DNA from: a bacterium
Lineage (GTDB): Bacteria; Vulcanimicrobiota; Vulcanimicrobiia; Vulcanimicrobiales; Vulcanimicrobiaceae
NCBI GenBank assembly: GCA_021805775.1
Contig: JAJZED010000006.1
Location: 62,001-126,000, forward strand
Reading direction: 5' to 3'
Length of the DNA: 64,000 nucleotides
In this document: one piece after another, positions 2,127 through 13,774 of the stretch
How the letters are laid out: each line of letters starts with the position of its first letter
How positions within the stretch are numbered: the stretch's first letter is position 1
Notes under the pieces: model-generated
What the model saw: the letters and a program-made list of their open reading frames with translations, nothing else
Database searches by the model: none
Told to the model about the DNA's origin: nothing
Program-made: the position numbers and the translations under genes

Positions 2127-2608
2127 AGTATCGCGTTGCGTGCATCGTGCTCTCCGATCGAGCTGCCGCCGGCGAACGCGAGGATGGTTGTCTGCCGGTT
2201 TTCCGCGAGCGGCTCGAACCGATCTACGAGATCGTGCGCGCGATTGTCATTCCCGACGATCCGGCAGCGTTGCAGGCCGAACTCATCGAGCTCGCCGATT
2301 CGGAGAGAGCCGACTGCATTCTCACGAGCGGTGGGACCGGGATCGCGCCGCGCGACCGCACGCCTCAGGCGACGGCAGCTGTGCTCGACTATGAAGTTCC
2401 GGGTATCGCCGAGGCGATTCGTGCCGCTGCGTTGCCTCGCGTACGCACGGCGATGCTCTCGCGAGCGCTCGCCGGGGTGCGGCATCGCACGCTGATCGTC
2501 AATCTCCCCGGTAGCCCGCGCGCCGTTGCGGAGTCGCTCGATGTCTTTCTTTCGACGCTTCCGCACGCGATGGAGCTGCTCTCGGAACGCCCGACCGATC
2601 ACTCATGA
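2123..2608 (+). CDS. mog: molybdopterin adenylyltransferase (MogA/MoaB family)
   Basis: Adenylates molybdopterin before molybdate insertion. The 161-residue protein begins at a GTG that overlaps the moaC stop (GTGA), followed by a typical beta-strand start (YRVACIVLSDRAAAGER). The family signature TSGGTGIAPRDRTPQAT, which binds the pterin, is intact, and the late motif VNLPGSPRAV matches the family. A longer frame upstream exists but lies inside moaC and does not resemble the family. Whether it is the MogA or MoaB subtype cannot be told from the sequence alone. Its stop overlaps the folC start (ATGA). Confidence 0.93.
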   Translation: MKYRVACIVLSDRAAAGEREDGCLPVFRERLEPIYEIVRAIVIPDDPAALQAELIELADSERADCILTSGGTGIAPRDRTPQATAAVLDYEVPGIAEAIRAAALPRVRTAMLSRALAGVRHRTLIVNLPGSPRAVAESLDVFLSTLPHAMELLSERPTDHS

Positions 2609-3930
2609 GGTTTGAAGAGGCGGAGCGTTATCTGCTCGCAAGTATCGGCGAGAACCAATCGCCGCGAACCAATTTCGGCCTGGAGCGTATGACGGCGTTG
2701 CTGGATGCTCTCGGCGATCCGCACCTGCGGTATCCCGTGGTCCATGTCGCCGGAACGAGCGGCAAAGGTTCGACCGCCACGATGATCGAGCGCGCGTTGC
2801 GGCGGCGCTCGTTGCGCGTCGGCCTTCACGTAAAACCGCACCTGCAATCGATGACCGAGCGCGCGCGGATCGGCGGGGTGCCGATATCGCACGAGCGTTT
2901 CGCCGATCTGTTTACGGAGATGCTTCCCGCTATCGATCGGGTCGCGGGCCGGTACGGCGCTCCGAGTTATTATGAAATGCTTCTTGCGCTGACGTTTCTT
3001 TATTTCGCTCGCAGCGAGGTCGATATCGCCGTTATCGAAGTGGGTTTGGGGGGGCGTCTTGACGGAACCAACGTCGTCTCCCCGATCGTCTGTGCAATTA
3101 CGAGCATCGGCTACGACCATCAGGAGATTCTCGGCGATACGCTCGAGGCGATCGCCGCCGAAAAGGCGGGTATCGCCAAACCGGGCGTTCCTCTCGTCAG
3201 CGCTGTGGGCGAAGAACCCGCACGTGCGACGATCGCGAGAATCTGTGCGCGCGTAGGCGCGCCGCTTATCGAGAGTGCGACGCATGCCCGAGTCGATGAG
3301 ATCGAAGTCGAAGAATTCGCGCAGAGGTTCGCCTTGCGAACGACGGCGGAGCGCTATCGCATTCGCTTGCCGGTTTTAGGCGGTTTTCAGCGGACGAACG
3401 CCGTCACTGCCGTGCTTGCGTTAGAGGCTCTACCATCGGCATTGCGACCGAATCGCGAGGAGATCGAGGCGGGGCTCGCGGAGGTTCGCATTCCCGGTCG
3501 CATGGAATTGATTCCCGGCGCACCCTCGGTTCTTTTCGATATCGCCCATAACGAACAGAAGGCGCGCTCGCTCGCCGATGCGCTTCGCGAACGATTCGGC
3601 GAGCGCCCACAGACCCTCGTCATCGGAATCGGTGAAAGCAAAGATGCGCGTGCGATCCTCGCCGCATTCGCGCGGCCGCGAAACCATTTCGTTCTCACGT
3701 CCTTCGATGCCGACGGACGTCCGGCGCGCCCTCCGGAGTATTTGGCCCACATTGCAGAGGAGTTGGGAGTCGCGCACGAATGCTGCGCCGACCCCGGCGC
3801 CGCATTCGCGCGCGCGTGCGCGCGCGCCGGCCCCTCCGGCATCGTCGTCGTGACGGGATCGACCTTTGTTGTCGCCGCGCTTCGTCCGGAGCTTCTTGGG
3901 ACGCAGCCGATATTTACGTCGATCGGATGA
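2605..3930 (+). CDS. folC: folylpolyglutamate synthase / dihydrofolate synthase
   Basis: Ligates glutamate to dihydropteroate and/or extends the polyglutamate tail of folates, using ATP. The 441-residue protein belongs to the Mur ligase superfamily: the P-loop GTSGKGST lies at residues 50-57, followed by IEVGLGGRLDGTNV and, in the C-terminal domain, FDIAHNEQKARSL. The usual TSPHL motif reads VKPHLQ here. The start codon overlaps the mog stop and its stop overlaps the folP start (both ATGA). Its place between molybdopterin and folate genes fits a combined pterin operon. Confidence 0.95.
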   Translation: MRFEEAERYLLASIGENQSPRTNFGLERMTALLDALGDPHLRYPVVHVAGTSGKGSTATMIERALRRRSLRVGLHVKPHLQSMTERARIGGVPISHERFADLFTEMLPAIDRVAGRYGAPSYYEMLLALTFLYFARSEVDIAVIEVGLGGRLDGTNVVSPIVCAITSIGYDHQEILGDTLEAIAAEKAGIAKPGVPLVSAVGEEPARATIARICARVGAPLIESATHARVDEIEVEEFAQRFALRTTAERYRIRLPVLGGFQRTNAVTAVLALEALPSALRPNREEIEAGLAEVRIPGRMELIPGAPSVLFDIAHNEQKARSLADALRERFGERPQTLVIGIGESKDARAILAAFARPRNHFVLTSFDADGRPARPPEYLAHIAEELGVAHECCADPGAAFARACARAGPSGIVVVTGSTFVVAALRPELLGTQPIFTSIG

Positions 3931-4769
3931 GCGCCGACACGTTGACGTTTCGGGGCCGGAGCTTCGTGCGCGGCAATCGGACGCTGGTCATGGGGATACT
4001 CAACGTCACGCCCGATTCGTTCTCCGGCGATGGACGCCCCGAACTTTGCGACGCCGTGGAGCGAGCGGTGGCGCAGCACGAAGCCGGTGCCGACACGATC
4101 GATATCGGCGGTGAATCGACGCGTCCCGGGCACGTTCCCATCTCGGTAGCCGAGGAGATCGAACGGGTACTCCCGGTGATTCGAGCGGTGCGCGAGCGCT
4201 TTCCCGATTGGCCGATCTCGATCGATACCTACAAACCCGAAGTAGCGCGAGCCGCGCTCGCCGTCGGCGCGGATTGTGTGAACTCGATATGGGGAGCGAG
4301 CGACGAGACGATCGATCTCGCTCTCGAGTACGGTGCGACGCTCGCGATCATGCACAATCGCGAGCGACCCGATGACGGGAATGTCGTCGACGAAGTTCTT
4401 CGTGCGTTGCTCGCCGATGCCCACCGCGCGCAACGGCGCGGACTCCCCGTCGATCGCATCATCCTCGATCCTGGAATCGGCTTTGGAAAAACGCCGGATC
4501 AAAATATCGCGTTGCTTGCCAATCTCGACCGGCTCGTCGCGCTGGGGTTCCCCACGTTATTAGGTACTTCGCGAAAATCGACGCTGGGAATGCTCTCGGG
4601 GCGCAATCGACCCGACGAGCGTGTTTTCGCAACCGCGGCGACGACGGCGCTTGCCGTCTCCGCCGGGATCGATATCGTGCGCGTTCACGATGTCGCGGCG
4701 ACACGCGACGTCGTCGCAATCTCCGATGCTATCGTTCGCGGATGGAGGCCGAGGACATGGATCGCATAA
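3927..4769 (+). CDS. folP: dihydropteroate synthase
   Basis: Condenses 6-hydroxymethyl-dihydropterin pyrophosphate with p-aminobenzoate to dihydropteroate, the sulfonamide target step. The 280-residue protein starts at the ATG overlapping the folC stop. Signatures: GILNVTPDSFSGDG (residues 23-36), DIGGESTRPG (59-68), ILDPGIGFGKTPDQN, the LGTSRKS loop and a late RVHDV motif. All are characteristic of active DHPS in a TIM-barrel fold. The next gene, folB, begins inside its last codons. Confidence 0.96.
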   Translation: MSADTLTFRGRSFVRGNRTLVMGILNVTPDSFSGDGRPELCDAVERAVAQHEAGADTIDIGGESTRPGHVPISVAEEIERVLPVIRAVRERFPDWPISIDTYKPEVARAALAVGADCVNSIWGASDETIDLALEYGATLAIMHNRERPDDGNVVDEVLRALLADAHRAQRRGLPVDRIILDPGIGFGKTPDQNIALLANLDRLVALGFPTLLGTSRKSTLGMLSGRNRPDERVFATAATTALAVSAGIDIVRVHDVAATRDVVAISDAIVRGWRPRTWIA

Positions 4770-5104
4770 CGCTGCGCGGTATAAGAGCGTACGGTCGGCA
4801 CGGTGCGGCCCCCGGCGAGCGCAATCGCGCGCAGCGCTTCGATATCGAGGTGCGATGCGAACTCGATGCCGGAGGTGCCCGTGTAAACGACGACCTCGCT
4901 GCGACCGTGGATTACGCGGCTCTCCACCGGCGGATCGTCGCGCTCGTCGCCGAGGAGTCTCACGATCTTCTCGAACGCCTCGCACAGCGTTTGCTCGATA
5001 TTTGCTTCGAAGATGGGCGCGTTCGCGAAGCGACGGTGACGATTGAAAAACCCGGCTTGCTCGATGGGGCGACACCGGGCGTGACCTGTTCGCAGCGGCG
5101 CTGA
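4757..5104 (+). CDS. folB: dihydroneopterin aldolase
   Basis: Cleaves 7,8-dihydroneopterin to 6-hydroxymethyl-dihydropterin and glycolaldehyde. Recognised by MDRITLRGIRAYGRHGAAPGE at the start, a DYAALH segment, ERLAQRLLD, and the EATVTIEKP ending. ATG 4757 is preferred over ATG 4742 because a GGAGG ribosome-binding site ends 7 bases before it and because family members begin at this Met. It overlaps the end of folP by 13 bases and shares the TGATG junction with folK. Length about 115 residues, normal for the family. Confidence 0.93.
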   Translation: MDRITLRGIRAYGRHGAAPGERNRAQRFDIEVRCELDAGGARVNDDLAATVDYAALHRRIVALVAEESHDLLERLAQRLLDICFEDGRVREATVTIEKPGLLDGATPGVTCSQRR

Positions 5105-5574
5105 TGGCGGTAGCGACGATCGGCATTGGAGCGAACGTCGGCGACGCCGCCGCCAGCGTCGAGCGCGCGATCGAAGCGCTGCACGACCTCGGGCCGATAA
5201 TCGCGCGCTCCTCGCTTTATCGTTCCGACCCATGGGGGAAGAGAAATCAGCCCGATTTCACCAACGCCGTCGCGCGCATCGAGACGTCGTTGCCGCCGCG
5301 AGCCTTGCTCGTTGCACTCCAGGCGATTGAAAACCGTTTAGGGCGCGTTCCCGGCGAGCGCTGGGGGCCGCGCGCGATCGATCTCGATATCTTGCTCTAC
5401 GACGATCTCGGGTTCGAGGATGAACTCTTGCGTATTCCGCATCGCTTCCTATTCGAACGCGCATTCGTGCTGGTTCCGCTAGCCGAGATCGACGCGGATT
5501 TTGAAATATGGCGCGATGCGTTGCCGCCGACCGAACTCAATACGGTGGAGCGTATCGTTGCCCGTTCGGAATGA
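5104..5574 (+). CDS. folK: HPPK: 6-hydroxymethyl-dihydropterin pyrophosphokinase
   Basis: Transfers pyrophosphate from ATP to 6-hydroxymethyl-dihydropterin, making the substrate of FolP. The 156-residue protein shows the HPPK signature RWGPRAIDLDILLYD (near residues 86-100), with the catalytic Asp pair in DLDIL. It also has the N-terminal GIGANVGD and the SLYRSDPWG and DFTNAV substrate-site segments. It is the last gene of the moaC-mog-folC-folP-folB-folK run, and a repeat block starts directly after its stop. No folE or pabAB is in the window, so pterin and pABA supply is encoded elsewhere. Confidence 0.95.
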   Translation: MAVATIGIGANVGDAAASVERAIEALHDLGPIIARSSLYRSDPWGKRNQPDFTNAVARIETSLPPRALLVALQAIENRLGRVPGERWGPRAIDLDILLYDDLGFEDELLRIPHRFLFERAFVLVPLAEIDADFEIWRDALPPTELNTVERIVARSE

Positions 5575-5648
5575 GGGCGATTATCGAGTAGCGGTGCTTG
5601 TGTCGCGCCGCGTAGCCGGGCTTGTATCATGCCGAGTAGCCGGGCTTG

Positions 5649-5736
5649 TGTCACGCCGAGTAGCCGCTGCAAGCGGCGTATCGAGGCGCGCGTCCCTCCC
5701 TCGATACGGTGGCTTCGCCACCTACTCGGGATGACA
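5649..5736. repeat. 88-bp three-armed cruciform repeat, copy A
   Basis: The outer arms TGTCACGCCGAGTAG and CTACTCGGGATGACA pair over 13 of 15 positions. Inside are three perfect hairpins: CCGCT/AGCGG with loop GCA, CGTATCGAGG/CCTCGATACG with a 12-nt loop, and GTGGC/GCCAC with loop TTC. The result is a cloverleaf-like fold possible on either strand. Copies B and C are nearly identical. Confidence 0.88.
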
Positions 5737-5765
5737 AACGGTAGCTTCGCCGCATCGATAACCCC

Positions 5766-5853
5766 TGTCACGCCGAGTAGCCGCTGCAAGCGGCGTATCG
5801 AGGCGCGCGTCCCTCCCTCGATACGGTGGCTTCGCCACCTACTCGGGATGACA
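5766..5853. repeat. 88-bp three-armed cruciform repeat, copy B
   Basis: Same arms and loops as copy A, joined to it by the 29-bp linker at 5737-5765. It is followed directly by two 31-bp right-arm copies. Confidence 0.88.
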
Positions 5854-5914
5854 GCGGTTGCTGCGCAACCTACTCGGGATGACAGCGGTTGCTGCACAAC
5901 CTACTCGGGATGAC
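5853..5914. repeat. 31-bp right-arm tandem repeat, two copies
   Basis: Each 31-bp unit carries a small hairpin (GGTTGC/GCAACC, loop TGC) plus the CTACTCGGGATGACA outer arm of the cruciform. The second copy has GCACAACC in place of GCGCAACC, which shortens the stem by one pair. Confidence 0.9.
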
Positions 5915-5968
5915 AAACGGTAGCTTCGCCGCATCGATAACCCCTGTCACGCCGAGTAGCCGGGCTTG

Positions 5969-6056
5969 TGTCACGCCGAGTAGCCGCTGCAAGCGGCGTA
6001 TCGAGGCGCGCGTCCCTCCCTCGATACGGTGGCTTCGCCACCTACTCGGGATGACA
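5969..6056. repeat. 88-bp three-armed cruciform repeat, copy C
   Basis: Same sequence architecture as copies A and B. It is preceded by a lone left-arm half-unit (5945-5968) and followed by the longest 31-bp array. Confidence 0.88.
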
Positions 6057-6227
6057 GCGGTTGCTGCGCAACCTACTCGGGATGACAGCGGTTGCTGCGC
6101 AACCTACTCGGGATGACAGCGGTTGCTGCGCAACCTACTCGGGATGACAGCGGTTGCTGCACAACCTACTCGGGATGACAGCGGTTGCTGCGCAACCTAC
6201 TCGGGATGACAGCGGTTGCTGCGCAAC
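6056..6227. repeat. 31-bp right-arm tandem repeat, five full copies plus a partial one
   Basis: Units begin at 6056, 6087, 6118, 6149 and 6180, with a partial copy at 6211-6227. The fourth copy carries the GCACAACC variant. There are no unique spacers between units, so this is a tandem array and not CRISPR. Confidence 0.92.
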
Positions 6228-8099: not shown

Positions 8100-8522
8100 A
8101 TGACCTCCGAGTACTCCCCCGAGGAAGACGCATCGGCCCGCGCACAGCGTCTGGCCGAATTTTTCGTCGGTACGCCGCTCTTACGCCTGCGAATCGAGCG
8201 CGAGAATGAGGAGTTTGAGCTTGCGCGCTCCGCGTCGGTATCGCCCTCCAGCAGCTCCGAGGCGGCGCTCTCCCCCGATCCTCCGGTCGAGCTCCCCGTC
8301 GACGTTCTGAGAGCCGACGTCGTCGGCATCGTTCGTTTCGGACGTCACGCTCCGACGCTCGGCGAGGAGGTGCCTGAAGAGCGAGAACTCGCCGCGATTG
8401 AGGCGTTAGGGATCCGCACCTCGGTGCGAGCGCGTTCGTCGGGGCGGCTGCGGGCCATCCTCTGTGAGGACGGCGCTGCAGTTGACTACGGCCGGGCGCT
8501 CTTCGAGATCGAGCGAGGGTAG
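8100..8522 (+). CDS. biotin carboxyl carrier-like protein lacking the biotinylated lysine
   Basis: A 140-residue protein directly before accC, where accB is usually found. Residues 70-140 align without gaps to the C-terminal biotinyl domain of AccB: VVGIVRFG..., then EALGIRTSV in place of EAMKMMNQI, then SSGRLRAILCEDGAAVDYGRALFEI. The biotin-accepting Lys is Gly104, so the domain cannot carry biotin. The N-terminal part is charged and Ser-rich. ATG 8100 is preferred; an in-frame GTG at 8043 would add 19 residues. Its stop overlaps a possible GTG start of accC. It could be a structural or regulatory subunit of the carboxylase. The fold call is strong; the role is unknown. Confidence 0.75.
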   Translation: MTSEYSPEEDASARAQRLAEFFVGTPLLRLRIERENEEFELARSASVSPSSSSEAALSPDPPVELPVDVLRADVVGIVRFGRHAPTLGEEVPEERELAAIEALGIRTSVRARSSGRLRAILCEDGAAVDYGRALFEIERG

Positions 8523-8527
8523 TGGCG

Positions 8528-9877
8528 ATGCTGCGGAAAGTCCTCGTTGCGAATCGCGGCGAGATCGCCCTACGAATCGTGCGTGCGTGCCGAGAACTCG
8601 GCATCGGCAGCGTTGCGATTTTCTCCGAGGCAGATCGAGAATCGACGCACGTGCGGGTCGCCGACGAGGCGTTCTGCGTCGGGCCCGGCCCCGTACCGCG
8701 CTCGTATCTGAACGTTCCGAATATTATCTCGGCGGCATTGGTGTCGGGCTGCGACGCCATCCACCCCGGCTATGGTTTTCTCGCCGAGAATGCGCGCTTC
8801 GCGGAGATCTGTGCCGATCACGGCTTGAAATTTATCGGCCCTCGTCCCGAGATCATCACGGCTATGGGCGATAAGGCGACGGCGAAACGCGTGATGGCGG
8901 AGGCAGGCGTCGCAACGACGCCGGGAACCGATATTCTGCCATCGGTCGAACTGGCTCGCGAAGCCGCCGATAAAATCGGCTATCCAGTTCTCCTTAAGGC
9001 GACCGCGGGCGGCGGGGGTAAGGGGATGCGCGTCGTCGAGCGTCCGGCCGATTTAGAGCGCGCGTTTCTCGGTGCGACTGCGGAAGCCGAGGCCTCGTTC
9101 AAAGACGGCCGCGTCTATATGGAAAAATTGATCCGCGATCCTCGCCATATCGAAGTGCAGGTTCTTGCCGACGAACACGGCGAGGTCGTTCACCTCGGCG
9201 AGCGGGACTGTTCGATCCAAAAACCATCGCACCAGAAACTGATCGAAGAGGCCGGCGCGCCCAATCTTACCGAGCGCGCTCGCGCTCGTTTGCACGAAAT
9301 GGCCGTGCTCGCATGTCGCCACGTCGGCTACAGCAATGCCGGAACTCTGGAATTTCTTTCGAGTGGCGACGATGTGTTTTTCATGGAAATGAACACGCGC
9401 ATTCAGGTCGAGCATCCGGTGACCGAGATGGTCTATGGGATCGACCTGGTTAAAGAACAAATACGGATCGCTTCGGGCGAACATTTGGGCTATACGCAAG
9501 CCGATCTGGAACCGCGCGGGCACGCCATAGAATGTCGGATAAACGCCGAAGATGCGCGAAATAATTTTGCGCCGCAGGCCGGAAAATTAGGCGCCGTCAT
9601 CTTTCCCGGTGGGCCCGGCATTCGTATCGATACGCATATTTTTTCCGGGGCGAACGTACCGCCGTACTACGATTCGATGTTGGCAAAAGTTATCGCCTTT
9701 GCCAACACGCGCGACCAGGCAATCGCGCGTATGGAGCGCGCGCTCCGTGAAACGTTGGTTGAAGGTGTCGCGACAACCACGGAGATGTGTTTAGAGATCC
9801 TCGGGACCGAAGGTTTTCGTAATGGAATTTACGATATCGGTTTTCTTCCTCGCTTGCTCGCGCAGCGCGTCGGATAA
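8528..9877 (+). CDS. accC: acetyl-CoA carboxylase, biotin carboxylase subunit
   Basis: Carboxylates the biotin of AccB using ATP and bicarbonate, the first half-reaction of malonyl-CoA synthesis. Length about 449 residues, as usual. The N-terminal KVLVANRGEIALRI and HPGYGFLAEN are typical. The ATP-grasp glycine loop KATAGGGGKGM is present, as are the catalytic MEMNTRIQVEHPVTE and the RINAEDARNNFAP C-terminal motif. ATG 8528 is taken as start; GTG 8522 overlapping the upstream stop is an alternative that adds two residues. Coupled to the lysine-less carrier gene. No accA or accD is in the window. Confidence 0.95.
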   Translation: MLRKVLVANRGEIALRIVRACRELGIGSVAIFSEADRESTHVRVADEAFCVGPGPVPRSYLNVPNIISAALVSGCDAIHPGYGFLAENARFAEICADHGLKFIGPRPEIITAMGDKATAKRVMAEAGVATTPGTDILPSVELAREAADKIGYPVLLKATAGGGGKGMRVVERPADLERAFLGATAEAEASFKDGRVYMEKLIRDPRHIEVQVLADEHGEVVHLGERDCSIQKPSHQKLIEEAGAPNLTERARARLHEMAVLACRHVGYSNAGTLEFLSSGDDVFFMEMNTRIQVEHPVTEMVYGIDLVKEQIRIASGEHLGYTQADLEPRGHAIECRINAEDARNNFAPQAGKLGAVIFPGGPGIRIDTHIFSGANVPPYYDSMLAKVIAFANTRDQAIARMERALRETLVEGVATTTEMCLEILGTEGFRNGIYDIGFLPRLLAQRVG

Positions 9878-9880
9878 ACT

Positions 9881-10294
9881 ATGCCCTCACGGCGGATGCT
9901 GCGAGAGCGTGCTTTGCAGACGCTCTACGCAATCGAGGTCGGAGGCCGCGAGCCGGCCGATGCGATCGAAGAAATTCTCGGTAGCGGCGGGGCGAGCGAT
10001 GACCGCTCGTTCGTGCGCGAGCTCGTGCTCGGAACGCTCGCCGGTGCGGATGTGGCCGACGAGCGCATCGGGCCGGCATTGCAGGGCTGGACGCTCGATC
10101 GGCTCGCGATCGTCGACCGAACGATTCTTCGCTTAGCGGTCTGCGAGTCTGCACAAAATGAGGCTCCGCCGCGCGCGGTCATCATCAACGAGGCCGTAGA
10201 GCTGGCGAAGCGATACTCCACCCCGGAGGCAGCGCGTTTTGTGAACGGCGTTCTTTCGGGCATTCTTGGCGATGCGTCGAGCGCCGAGGCGTAA
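9881..10294 (+). CDS. nusB: transcription antitermination factor NusB
   Basis: All-helical RNA-binding protein that pairs with NusE (S10) on boxA RNA to support rRNA transcription. The 137-residue protein shows the family pattern: RRMLRERALQTLYAIEVGG at the start, LDRLAIVDRTILRLAVCES in the middle and the INEAVELAKRYSTPEAARFVNGVLSGI ending. It starts three bases after the accC stop. Its last codons overlap the PBP gene. Confidence 0.93.
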   Translation: MPSRRMLRERALQTLYAIEVGGREPADAIEEILGSGGASDDRSFVRELVLGTLAGADVADERIGPALQGWTLDRLAIVDRTILRLAVCESAQNEAPPRAVIINEAVELAKRYSTPEAARFVNGVLSGILGDASSAEA

Positions 10295-12413
10295 AGCCCG
10301 TCGTCCGCTGCGTTGGCGGAGCATCGGCTCGATCGCGCTCCTTCTCGTTATTTTCGGGGTGGGGACGTTCGCCGGCATGGTGCTGGTGATCTCGCGGAAC
10401 CTTCCCGACGTGCGCGAACTCTCCGATTATCAACCCGAGGGGGCGACGCGAATTTTCGCCGCCGATGGAAGCGTACTCGGCAGCGTGTATAAGCAGAACC
10501 GCGTTTACGTTCCGTTATCAAAAATTCCCCCGATCGTACGAGACGCCTTTATTGCCAACGAAGACCATACGTTTTATACGAACCCCGGTATCGACATTGT
10601 GGGCATCATTCGTGCCGCAATCGCCGACGCGCTCCACCAACCTCTCGAAGGCGCATCGACGATCACGCAGCAACTCGCCCGAGGTCTCTTTCTCAACGAT
10701 CGCATTACGATAACGCGAAAGGTTGAAGAAGCCTTGCTGGCGTTGAAGATCGAGCATTACTATACAAAAGATCAAATCCTCGAACGGTATCTCAACCTCA
10801 TCTATCTCGGATCGGGGGCCTACGGTATAGATGCCGCCGCGCGAACCTACTTTGGGCGCAGCGTTTCGCAGTTGACGCTCGGGCAAGCAGCGATCATCGC
10901 CGGCGTCGTCGCCGCTCCTTCCGATTACTCGCCGTTTGTCGATCTCAAGCTCGCGCGCGAGCGCCAACGTCACGTGCTCGGTCGCATGGTCGCTAGCGGA
11001 TATATTACGCGAGCGCAGGCGCGAGCTGCATTTGCAGCGCCGCTGCATCTGGTAAAAGAGCGTAGCGAAGGCCCGCTGGGCTATCGCGCCCCGTGGTTTA
11101 CCACCTATGTCATCGCGCGTTTGCGACGTCTTTTTGGGAATCGCGCCGTTCGCGAGGGTGGTCTGCAAGTCTATACGAGTCTCGATCCGCGTATGGAGAG
11201 CGCCGCGCAATCGGCGATCGACTGGGGACTGCGCGCGGCAAAGGCAGAAGGGATCGGCGCCCACCAAGCGGCGCTCGTCGCTATCCGCCCATCCACCGGC
11301 GAGATCGTTGCGATGATCGGCGGGAAAAAATTCTCTGCCGACGATCAGTTCAATCGCGCCTGGCAAGCGCTTCGGCAGCCCGGCTCGTCATTTAAGATAT
11401 ACCTTTACACCGCGGCGATGAACAGCGGCCTCTCGCCATCGACGATTATGGATGACACGCCGGTAACCTATCCCATGTATGACGGGAAGACGTGGTCGCC
11501 TCACGACGACGACAATCGTTTCATGGGACCGATTACGCTCCGGCGCGCACTCGCGCTATCGCGTAACGTCGTTGCCGTGAAACTCGCCGATCGCATTGGA
11601 CTCGATAAGTTTATCGCCTACGCTCATGCGATGGGCGTGCGCGCGCCTTTGGAGCCGAATCTCTCGTTGGCGCTGGGAACGTCGTCGGTGAGCGTGCTCG
11701 ATCAAGCGAGCGGATTTCAAACGTTAGCGAATCAAGGGCTACACATTACGCCGCGTGCGATCTTGATGGTCCGCGATGCGTACGGCAATGTCGTCCTCGA
11801 CGACCGGACGCCGCGCGAGCGTCGCGTCGTTTCGCCGGCGACGGCCTTTCTGATGACCTCGATGCTCGAAGATACCATCGCCTACGGAACGGGCGTAAAC
11901 GCCAATATCGGGCGACCCGCCGCGGGGAAGACGGGGACGACATCGGATTTTCGCGACGCCTGGTTTGTTGGATATACTCCCGATTTGGTGACCGCCGTTT
12001 GGATGGGAAACGATAACGATTCGCGGATGATCGAGTCGTATGGAGGCAATGTCCCGGCGCGAATCTGGGCGCGCTTCATGCGCGCCGCACTCGCGAAAAC
12101 TCCGCCGCACCCCTTCGTGGTTCCGAAAGGTGTCGTGCGTGAACCGACCTGCAGCGGCGGCGTAGATTATTTCTTGGCCGGAAATCAGGAGCGCGCAAAT
12201 TGCGGGCACGCGAAAACGCTGCCGACGGCGACGCCTTCAGCGAGTCCCAACCCTGATGCGACGCCGCCGCCGAATACCGCAGGCGACGGAACGACGTACA
12301 CCCCGCTCGGTTCGACGCCGCTTCCTTCCAGCGCGCCGACGAGTCCACCCGAGCCGGCGGCGAGCCCCGACACCGCACAGGGGCCGACGCCGCAGGCAAG
12401 CGCGACGCCGTGA
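10272..12413 (+). CDS. class A penicillin-binding protein (transglycosylase/transpeptidase)
   Basis: Polymerises and crosslinks peptidoglycan in the periplasm. One N-terminal membrane helix (about residues 18-40) is followed by a GT51 domain with EDHTFYTNPGID, GASTITQQLARG (near 125) and KIEHYYTKDQILERYLNLIYLG. The transpeptidase domain has SSFK (near 371), SRN and KTGTT (near 552). The last ~70 residues are a Pro/Ser/Thr/Ala-rich tail. ATG 10272 was chosen; a TTG at 10266 is also in frame. The start lies inside nusB, and the stop overlaps xseA (GTGA). It resembles PBP1A but the subclass is not certain. Confidence 0.93.
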   Translation: MRRAPRRKARRPLRWRSIGSIALLLVIFGVGTFAGMVLVISRNLPDVRELSDYQPEGATRIFAADGSVLGSVYKQNRVYVPLSKIPPIVRDAFIANEDHTFYTNPGIDIVGIIRAAIADALHQPLEGASTITQQLARGLFLNDRITITRKVEEALLALKIEHYYTKDQILERYLNLIYLGSGAYGIDAAARTYFGRSVSQLTLGQAAIIAGVVAAPSDYSPFVDLKLARERQRHVLGRMVASGYITRAQARAAFAAPLHLVKERSEGPLGYRAPWFTTYVIARLRRLFGNRAVREGGLQVYTSLDPRMESAAQSAIDWGLRAAKAEGIGAHQAALVAIRPSTGEIVAMIGGKKFSADDQFNRAWQALRQPGSSFKIYLYTAAMNSGLSPSTIMDDTPVTYPMYDGKTWSPHDDDNRFMGPITLRRALALSRNVVAVKLADRIGLDKFIAYAHAMGVRAPLEPNLSLALGTSSVSVLDQASGFQTLANQGLHITPRAILMVRDAYGNVVLDDRTPRERRVVSPATAFLMTSMLEDTIAYGTGVNANIGRPAAGKTGTTSDFRDAWFVGYTPDLVTAVWMGNDNDSRMIESYGGNVPARIWARFMRAALAKTPPHPFVVPKGVVREPTCSGGVDYFLAGNQERANCGHAKTLPTATPSASPNPDATPPPNTAGDGTTYTPLGSTPLPSSAPTSPPEPAASPDTAQGPTPQASATP

Positions 12414-13774
12414 GCGCGACGGAGGATCTCCGCGCGCCGATGACCGTTGCGGAGTTCTCGCAGCGAATGAGCGATCTTTTCGCGAAGGTACCGCGGTTTC
12501 GCGATATCGCCGTCAGCGGTGAGATCACCGGATTCCGGCCATCGACAAACGCGATCTATTTCGACCTCAAAGATCAGGGCGCGCAAGGGGGGGCTTTGCT
12601 CTCATGTTTTTTGCGGCTCGATCGTTTGCCGCAAGGTGTAGAGCTCGCCGACGGGCTCGCCGTGGTGGCGCGCGGAGAGATTATCAACTACGGTCCGCGC
12701 AGCCGTTACTCGTTAACGGTTCGGGAGATTGCAGCGACTGGGTTGGGATTGCTTTTCATCGAGTTTCAAGCGCTGAAGGAGCGTTTGCAGCGCGAGGGGC
12801 TCTTTAATGACGATCGCAAACGTGCGCTACCGCGCTTCCCGCGCGCCGTTGCCGTCGTTTCGACACGCGAAGGTAAAGGGATCGACGATTTCATGCGCGA
12901 GATCGAGAAGAGGGCGCCGTTCGTTCGCGTACGACTCTTCGACACGCGCGTGCAGGGGATGGGTGCCGAGCGGGATATCGCCGCTGCCATAAATCGTGCC
13001 GACGCCAGCGGCGCCGATCTCATCGTGCTCGGGCGCGGCGGCGGATCGTACGAAGATCTGTTCACGTTCAATCGAGAGGAGGTCGTGCGCGCGATCGTTG
13101 CCGCGCGTACTCCGGTGCTCACGGCGATCGGGCACAGCGCGGATATCCACCTCGCCGATTTCGCTGCGGACGAGCGGGCGAATACGCCCAGCCTCGCTGT
13201 CGAGCGCGTGCTCTCGGGGTGGCTCAAGGCAACGGAGTGGTTGCCGAAAATGAACGAACGGCTCGCCCATGCCGCGCAACGACGGCTCGACGTCGCAGCG
13301 CGCGACGTCGAGTCGCGTTCGCGAAACATCGATACGGCAATCGCCCGTCGCCTGAGCGGACTGCAGGGAAGCGTCGTCCAACGCGAGCGCGTGTTGGTCG
13401 CACTCGACCCTCGCGCGCGGCTCGCCGGGCGGGCGGCGGCGATCGCGGCCCGAAGCGAACAACTGCAGGCCTCGGTCGCCGCGCTCTTGCATCGGTTGCA
13501 GACGCAACTTTCGATGCGCGGCGAGCGGCTTCCGGAACGTATCGCGGGGCTCGCTTCACGAAAGCGCTCGCTGCTCGACCTGCGTACTGCGGCGTTGCGC
13601 GCGGGCGATCCACACGGCCCGTTGGAGCGTGGCTACGCAATGGTCCTACGCGAGGGCGTGGTCGTTCGTAACGCCACGCAACTGCGAGTCGGCGACGAAG
13701 TGCGCGCGCGTTTCGGACGCGGGGCTGCGCGCGCGCGTATCGAACGTATCGAACGAGAGGAGGGCGAAGTATGA
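12410..13774 (+). CDS. xseA: exodeoxyribonuclease VII large subunit
   Basis: Large subunit of ExoVII, which degrades single-stranded DNA to oligonucleotides. The 454-residue protein has an N-terminal OB-fold (FRDIAVSGEITGFRPSTN...YFDLKDQ). The catalytic region follows with VVSTREGKGIDDFM, VLGRGGGSYEDLFTFN and TAIGHSADIHLADFAADERANTPS. A long helical C-terminus (predicted coiled coil, about 270-400) binds XseB. GTG start overlaps the PBP stop; its stop overlaps xseB (ATGA). Confidence 0.95.
   Translation: MSATEDLRAPMTVAEFSQRMSDLFAKVPRFRDIAVSGEITGFRPSTNAIYFDLKDQGAQGGALLSCFLRLDRLPQGVELADGLAVVARGEIINYGPRSRYSLTVREIAATGLGLLFIEFQALKERLQREGLFNDDRKRALPRFPRAVAVVSTREGKGIDDFMREIEKRAPFVRVRLFDTRVQGMGAERDIAAAINRADASGADLIVLGRGGGSYEDLFTFNREEVVRAIVAARTPVLTAIGHSADIHLADFAADERANTPSLAVERVLSGWLKATEWLPKMNERLAHAAQRRLDVAARDVESRSRNIDTAIARRLSGLQGSVVQRERVLVALDPRARLAGRAAAIAARSEQLQASVAALLHRLQTQLSMRGERLPERIAGLASRKRSLLDLRTAALRAGDPHGPLERGYAMVLREGVVVRNATQLRVGDEVRARFGRGAARARIERIEREEGEV

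Follow-up and report, generated by a model that had tools for sequence, protein, structure and literature searches.

The locus considered here raises the question of what a protein built like the biotin carrier AccB, without the Lys residue that accepts biotin, does next to the gene for biotin carboxylase. Acetyl-CoA carboxylase (ACC) starts fatty-acid synthesis, to which it commits carbon, and serves as a target for antibiotics; textbooks describe the bacterial enzyme as a set of four proteins. In the window (the whole stretch of 64,000 nucleotides that was analysed, from a genome of the phylum Vulcanimicrobiota, Candidatus Eremiobacterota), the gene for such a Lys-less protein ends with a stop codon at 8520–8522 and is directly followed by accC, starting at GTG 8522 or at ATG 8528, the latter being suggested by PDB alignment (Table 1). 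The Lys-less gene, accC, and nusB are adjacent in families f1, f3, f4, f5, f12, and f13, and xseA is close to them in the window. Since accB–accC–nusB–xseA is the gene order of many bacteria, the Lys-less gene occupies the place of accB and abuts accC there, as had been described preliminarily. Neither a sigma-70-like promoter nor a terminator was found around it. Elsewhere in the window, a folate cluster (2605–5574) encodes a FolC-like Mur ligase, folP, folB, and folK, and the intergenic region between folK and a divergent GAF/HD-domain gene (5585–6227) contains tandem arrays of 24- and 31-nucleotide, palindromic-looking units, with up to 6.5 copies at 97% identity.

Table 1. Coordinates of the Lys-less gene, its parts, and its neighbours in the window (aa, amino acid residues)
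Feature	Coordinates	Strand	Remarks
AccB paralogue lacking the Lys that accepts biotin, 140 aa	8100..8522	+	Alternative upstream start, GTG 8043
N-terminal helix–hairpin domain, aa ~10–46, homologue of the AccB N-terminal domain	8127..8237	+	Profile matches, AF2, dN/dS
Linker, aa ~47–66, disordered, fast-evolving	8238..8297	+	dN/dS 0.60; pLDDT <50 at aa 46–59
Biotinyl-like domain, aa 67–140	8298..8519	+	pLDDT, TM-scores, dN/dS 0.055
Thumb loop, shortened, aa 76–88, 13 residues vs. 18 in normal AccB	8325..8363	+	
Hairpin tip EALGIR	8400..8417	+	Codon 104 (8409–8411, GGG), Gly at the biotinyl-Lys site
VDYG with V-D-Y at aa 128–130, the V-E/D-Y/F motif	8481..8492	+	Kept in accC-linked copies, lost from standalone AccB
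accC, biotin carboxylase subunit	8528..9877	+	Alternative GTG start, 8522
nusB, conserved downstream neighbour	9881..10294	+	Ancestral accB–accC–nusB order
xseA, another member of the ancestral cluster	12410..13774	+	

Profiles, an AlphaFold2 (AF2) model, and a Foldseek search together assign to the protein the biotinyl fold and the N-terminal domain of AccB. Residues 88–137 match Pfam Biotin_lipoyl (24.8 bits; cut-off, 22.1), and the score against TIGR00531 (AccB/BCCP), 28.7 bits, lies far under the cut-off of 115.2; no match was found in PHROGs. Among PDB entries, the family profile fitted E. coli AccB from the AccC–AccB crystal structure best (4hr7_B; profile 14–144 over chain residues 24–176; E-value, 2.3e-18), the match taking in the N-terminal domain, and hhalign aligned the profile with that of the standalone AccB of the phylum over 135 columns (E-value, 1.3e-28). 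The AF2 model, predicted from 41 sequences, has a pLDDT of 83 overall and of 93–97 across the biotinyl-like domain (from residue 71), with an N-terminal domain composed of a helix (7–23) and two strands (29–34 and 37–42). Its best solved Foldseek match is the biotinyl domain of E. coli AccB (1bdo; target TM-score, 0.85), and Arabidopsis BCCP1 (9a87; TM-score, 0.82) is also close. The likeness to AccB, which the preliminary description placed in the last 70 residues, is thus borne out there and extends to the N-terminal domain, whereas the gap-free alignment claimed for those residues holds for about 50 of them, the thumb loop being five residues shorter. Its central observation stands: the hairpin tip reads EALGIRTSV, departing from the (A/S)MK(M/L) form of a biotin site, with Gly104 in the Lys column of the tip equivalent to EAMKMMNQI.

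The inventory of the genome agrees with the expectation that a real accB must exist elsewhere. On another contig (G000:C12:200479-200919; L007, L076), a gene for a 147-residue AccB with the tip EAMKLFNEI is located away from accC, flanked by hisS and a phosphosugar isomerase-like gene (neighbours named from a reading of their sequences); its TIGR00531 score, 108.1, is itself just under the cut-off. Three biotin carboxylases are encoded, two with a fused BCCP and the AccC of the window, which is the only stand-alone one. This AccC scores 636.7 bits (cut-off, 626.5), with the HQK and EMNTRIQVEHPVTE motifs visible, and its catalytic motifs are intact except for one inserted residue (QKPSHQK for QRRHQK). 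The accA and accD genes are grouped some 64 kb downstream of accC, and birA is present once. With accC, the separate accB, accA, and accD, the four classical subunits are complete without the Lys-less protein. The inserted residue of AccC (residues ~226–233) recurs in families f1–f3, where the near-universal ERDCS-Q-RRHQK motif becomes QKP(S/G/A)HQK, and is missing from the AccC proteins read from the other families of the phylum; it coincides with a class-wide shortening of the thumb loop in the Lys-less partner, and the two changes possibly reflect an altered interface.

A match to the Lys-less protein was found in 56 of 60 relatives and in all 39 near-complete ones, nearly always directly upstream of accC, and a Lys-bearing AccB is encoded elsewhere in 54 of the 60 and in 38 of the 39. 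Among 132 accC-adjacent copies read across the phylum, 122 are without Lys (having Gly, Asn, Arg, or Ser) and 10 retain it, so a predominance of Lys among homologues, which would have counted against the preliminary description, is not seen; every standalone AccB read in the phylum has Lys. By family, the tip residue is Gly in f1, the family of the window (91/91), Gly in f2 (4/4; a further copy, from a second accC operon, has Lys), Lys (8) or Arg (6) in f3, Lys in f4, Asn in f5–f8, f11, and f12, Arg in f10, Arg or Gly in f13, Gly or Ser in f14, Ser in f15, and Gly in f16. The ten Lys copies accordingly comprise eight of f3, one of f4, and that of the second accC operon in f2. Within one f3 genus, Lys and Arg interchange between species (EAL(K/R)LRNPV; Lys in L053, Arg in L049), which argues against biotinylation even in f3. 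A separate acyl-CoA carboxylase operon of another genome (G014; L073:94-2242) contains accC, a Lys-bearing accB (EVMKLFN), and an adjacent gene for a 124-residue Lys-less AccB-like protein (EAPQKS), and is followed by a thiolase-like gene.

In the genus of the source genome, Gly104 is kept in all nine species that have the gene, encoded by GGG, GGA, GGC, and GGT alike. Over these nine species, the gene has a median dN/dS of 0.135 (accC, 0.020). Its linker evolves fastest, at 0.60, the N-terminal and biotinyl-like domains have values of 0.094 and 0.055, respectively, and the tip hairpin is at about 0. The presumption that the gene is selected is therefore correct, purifying selection being strongest at the very tip that has lost Lys. 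Together with the varied Gly codons, these ratios exclude a decaying gene and a sequencing error: a pseudogene was rejected on the dN/dS, and an error on the Gly found in nine independent genomes.

From roughly 240 genomes sampled outside the phylum, we examined the top-scoring carriers, as well as the carriers of genomes with at least two matches. In at least eight families there, a linked copy without Lys is accompanied by an AccB with Lys at another locus (8/8 genomes), the tip residue of the linked copy being Gly (G152, G165, G170, G220, and G317), Asp (G216), Ser (G267), or Glu (G177). In four further genomes (G163, G204, G234, and G294), a second copy is linked and has retained Lys, and most of the others read have a linked, Lys-bearing copy. 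Two genomes (G271 and G290) do not enter the tally of linked pairs, because their Lys-less copy was without an accC match in the stretches read. In tree tests, a single clade of the Lys-less copies alone, without Lys-bearing relatives, was rejected (p-AU, 6e-8). A clade of all linked copies of two-copy genomes, Lys-bearing or not, was not rejected (p-AU, 0.93) and scored better than the free search. The tree would fit one old paralogue lineage that lost Lys repeatedly, which we regard as a lead only, because the grouping was in part made post hoc, many branches are long, and the alignment has about 150 columns.

The linked and standalone copies differ in complementary ways. The V-E/D-Y/F motif near the C-terminus is present in 120 of the 122 Lys-less and all 10 Lys-bearing linked copies of the phylum, in 7 of 7 Lys-less linked copies outside it, and in none of the 37 standalone Lys copies of the phylum. 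The thumb loop has 13 residues in most linked copies of the class and 18 in the standalone carriers, and the Met on either side that is typical of a biotin site is replaced in most linked copies. Linked, Lys-bearing AccB outside the phylum mostly has both features, the motif in 19 of 20 and an 18-residue thumb loop in 18 of 20. Hence, the linked copy keeps V-E/D-Y/F but no longer has Lys or, in most cases, the full thumb, and the standalone AccB shows the reverse; the simplest reading of these sequences is that the tasks of one ancestral carrier may have been divided between two genes. Glu147 of E. coli AccB, which matches the Glu of the motif, has been linked to biotin-ligase recognition. Retention of the motif by a protein without biotin would nevertheless point to AccC, and not to the biotin machinery, as its contact.

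Where a decoy, a stabiliser, or a regulator had been proposed, the evidence favours a stabiliser or assembly subunit. We consider it fairly probable, judging from sequence and anatomical likeness, that the Lys-less protein is a non-catalytic structural or assembly subunit of the AccC–AccB subcomplex that works like plant BADC, a Lys-less BCCP paralogue facilitating BC–BCCP assembly (PMC11926652). By its sequence, the protein is an AccB (BCCP) paralogue, encoded where accB originally stood, that has lost the biotinylation site and retained the remainder of the carrier. In the proposed mechanism, the N-terminal domain would take part in the AccB/AccC assembly, and the biotinyl-like domain would dock on AccC through the retained V-E/D-Y/F face, so that the genuine AccB, biotinylated and encoded elsewhere, is held or positioned. 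We infer a ‘glue’ role, with binding to both AccC and AccB. We count in favour of the assembly subunit the presence in all near-complete relatives, the linkage to accC, the Lys-bearing AccB encoded elsewhere, the purifying selection, the full-length AccB architecture, the complementary motif loss, the complete ACC set, the accC–nusB–xseA position, and the BADC precedent. Against it stand the ten linked copies with a retained Lys, most of which belong to a single family, the link of Glu147 to biotin-ligase recognition, and the disagreement in plant work on whether BADC assembles or inhibits ACC (PMC11926652).

The next reading in our ranking is an inhibitory decoy or regulator competing with biotinylated AccB for AccC and lowering ACC flux, perhaps tuned by a signal such as PII or by dosage. 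A kept carrier fold that cannot carry biotin would suit it, as would the inhibitory model of plant BADC (cited in PMC11926652). We nevertheless think it unlikely: the gene adjoins accC, so that in all genomes the protein is probably made together with its target, as would be expected of a stoichiometric subunit more than of a switch; purifying selection on the N-terminal domain would not be needed for a pure decoy; and V-E/D-Y/F is gone from the very AccB that would be displaced. More doubtful still is some other task on AccC without contact to AccB, for instance as a chaperone of AccC dimers, as a link between AccC and other proteins, or in place of the BT-type BC–CT adaptor. In nearly every Vulcanimicrobiota locus read, the linkage is indeed to accC and not to accB, but the N-terminal domain matches that of AccB, and in the second operon of G014 accC, a Lys-bearing accB, and the Lys-less copy lie side by side. 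Very improbable is a protein that is still a carrier, through another residue, a non-covalent cofactor, or biotinylation of its Lys-bearing members; the ten linked Lys copies would agree with it, but the tip accommodates Gly, Asn, Ser, Arg, Asp, and Glu, Lys gives way to Arg inside a single f3 genus, the flanking Met and part of the thumb loop are mostly gone, and an EAMK-type AccB is present in every Lys-less genome examined for it, except for a few incomplete ones. A functionless relic of the original accB, decaying after a copy elsewhere took over, can practically be dismissed, since for all its ancestral position and lost functional residue the gene has the low dN/dS given above, about 0 at the tip, and is kept in 39 of 39 near-complete relatives and most of the phylum. 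The assembly subunit is ranked as the most likely of these readings.

Compared with known systems, the Lys-less protein shares with E. coli-type AccB/BCCP (TIGR00531) the domain order, the fold, the adjacency to accC, and the V-E-Y/F motif, and differs in the replaced Lys, the shorter thumb loop, the low TIGR00531 score, and the carrier role residing on another protein. The actinobacterial AccE has, to our knowledge, no biotinyl fold, whereas a biotinyl-like β-fold is predicted for the Lys-less protein. AccE, the ε-subunit of acyl-CoA carboxylases, is a small, non-catalytic protein that assembles and activates the biotin carboxylase complex (PMC7835884); the Lys-less protein is likewise small and probably non-catalytic, with a proposed assembly role for such a complex, but AccE is not carrier-like and binds the CT subunit rather than the biotin carboxylase subunit. 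In the literature searched, which included few subscription papers, no report of a bacterial Lys-less AccB was found.

The closest counterparts are BADC1–3 of the Arabidopsis plastid heteromeric ACC, also BCCP paralogues without the biotinylation motif beside a true BCCP. Their anatomy, a biotinyl-like domain and an N-terminal region, with BC and BCCP as the expected partners, would be shared by the Lys-less protein, and the separate biotinylated BCCP would correspond, by its sequence, to the EAMKL gene and its counterparts in 38 of 39 near-complete relatives. Unlike BADC, the protein is bacterial, its gene adjoins accC at the ancestral accB site, and part of the thumb loop has been lost in most members of the class. 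BADC has been called unique to the plant enzyme, and other authors see in it an inhibitor (PMC11926652). The bacteria studied here probably have a non-catalytic extra ACC subunit of a kind for which only plant examples have been described to date. Should such a fifth subunit, carrier-like but not biotinylated, prove to be standard in this phylum and several other lineages, the quaternary model of bacterial ACC and its annotation would need revision, and the bacterial pair would offer a soluble system, with several Lys losses, for settling the dispute over assembly and inhibition by BADC in plants. More tentatively, ACC of many bacterial lineages may employ a pair of AccB paralogues that stem from a single ancient duplication, the accC-linked one, usually without Lys, serving in assembly and the standalone, biotinylated one acting as the carrier. 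The pair would have split the AccC docking and biotin carrying of one ancestral AccB, with BADC as the plant case of a wider design. Plant BADC was not among the PDB matches of the protein, and the likeness, drawn from anatomy by setting descriptions rather than sequences side by side, is likely to be convergence between the bacterial and the plant subunit.
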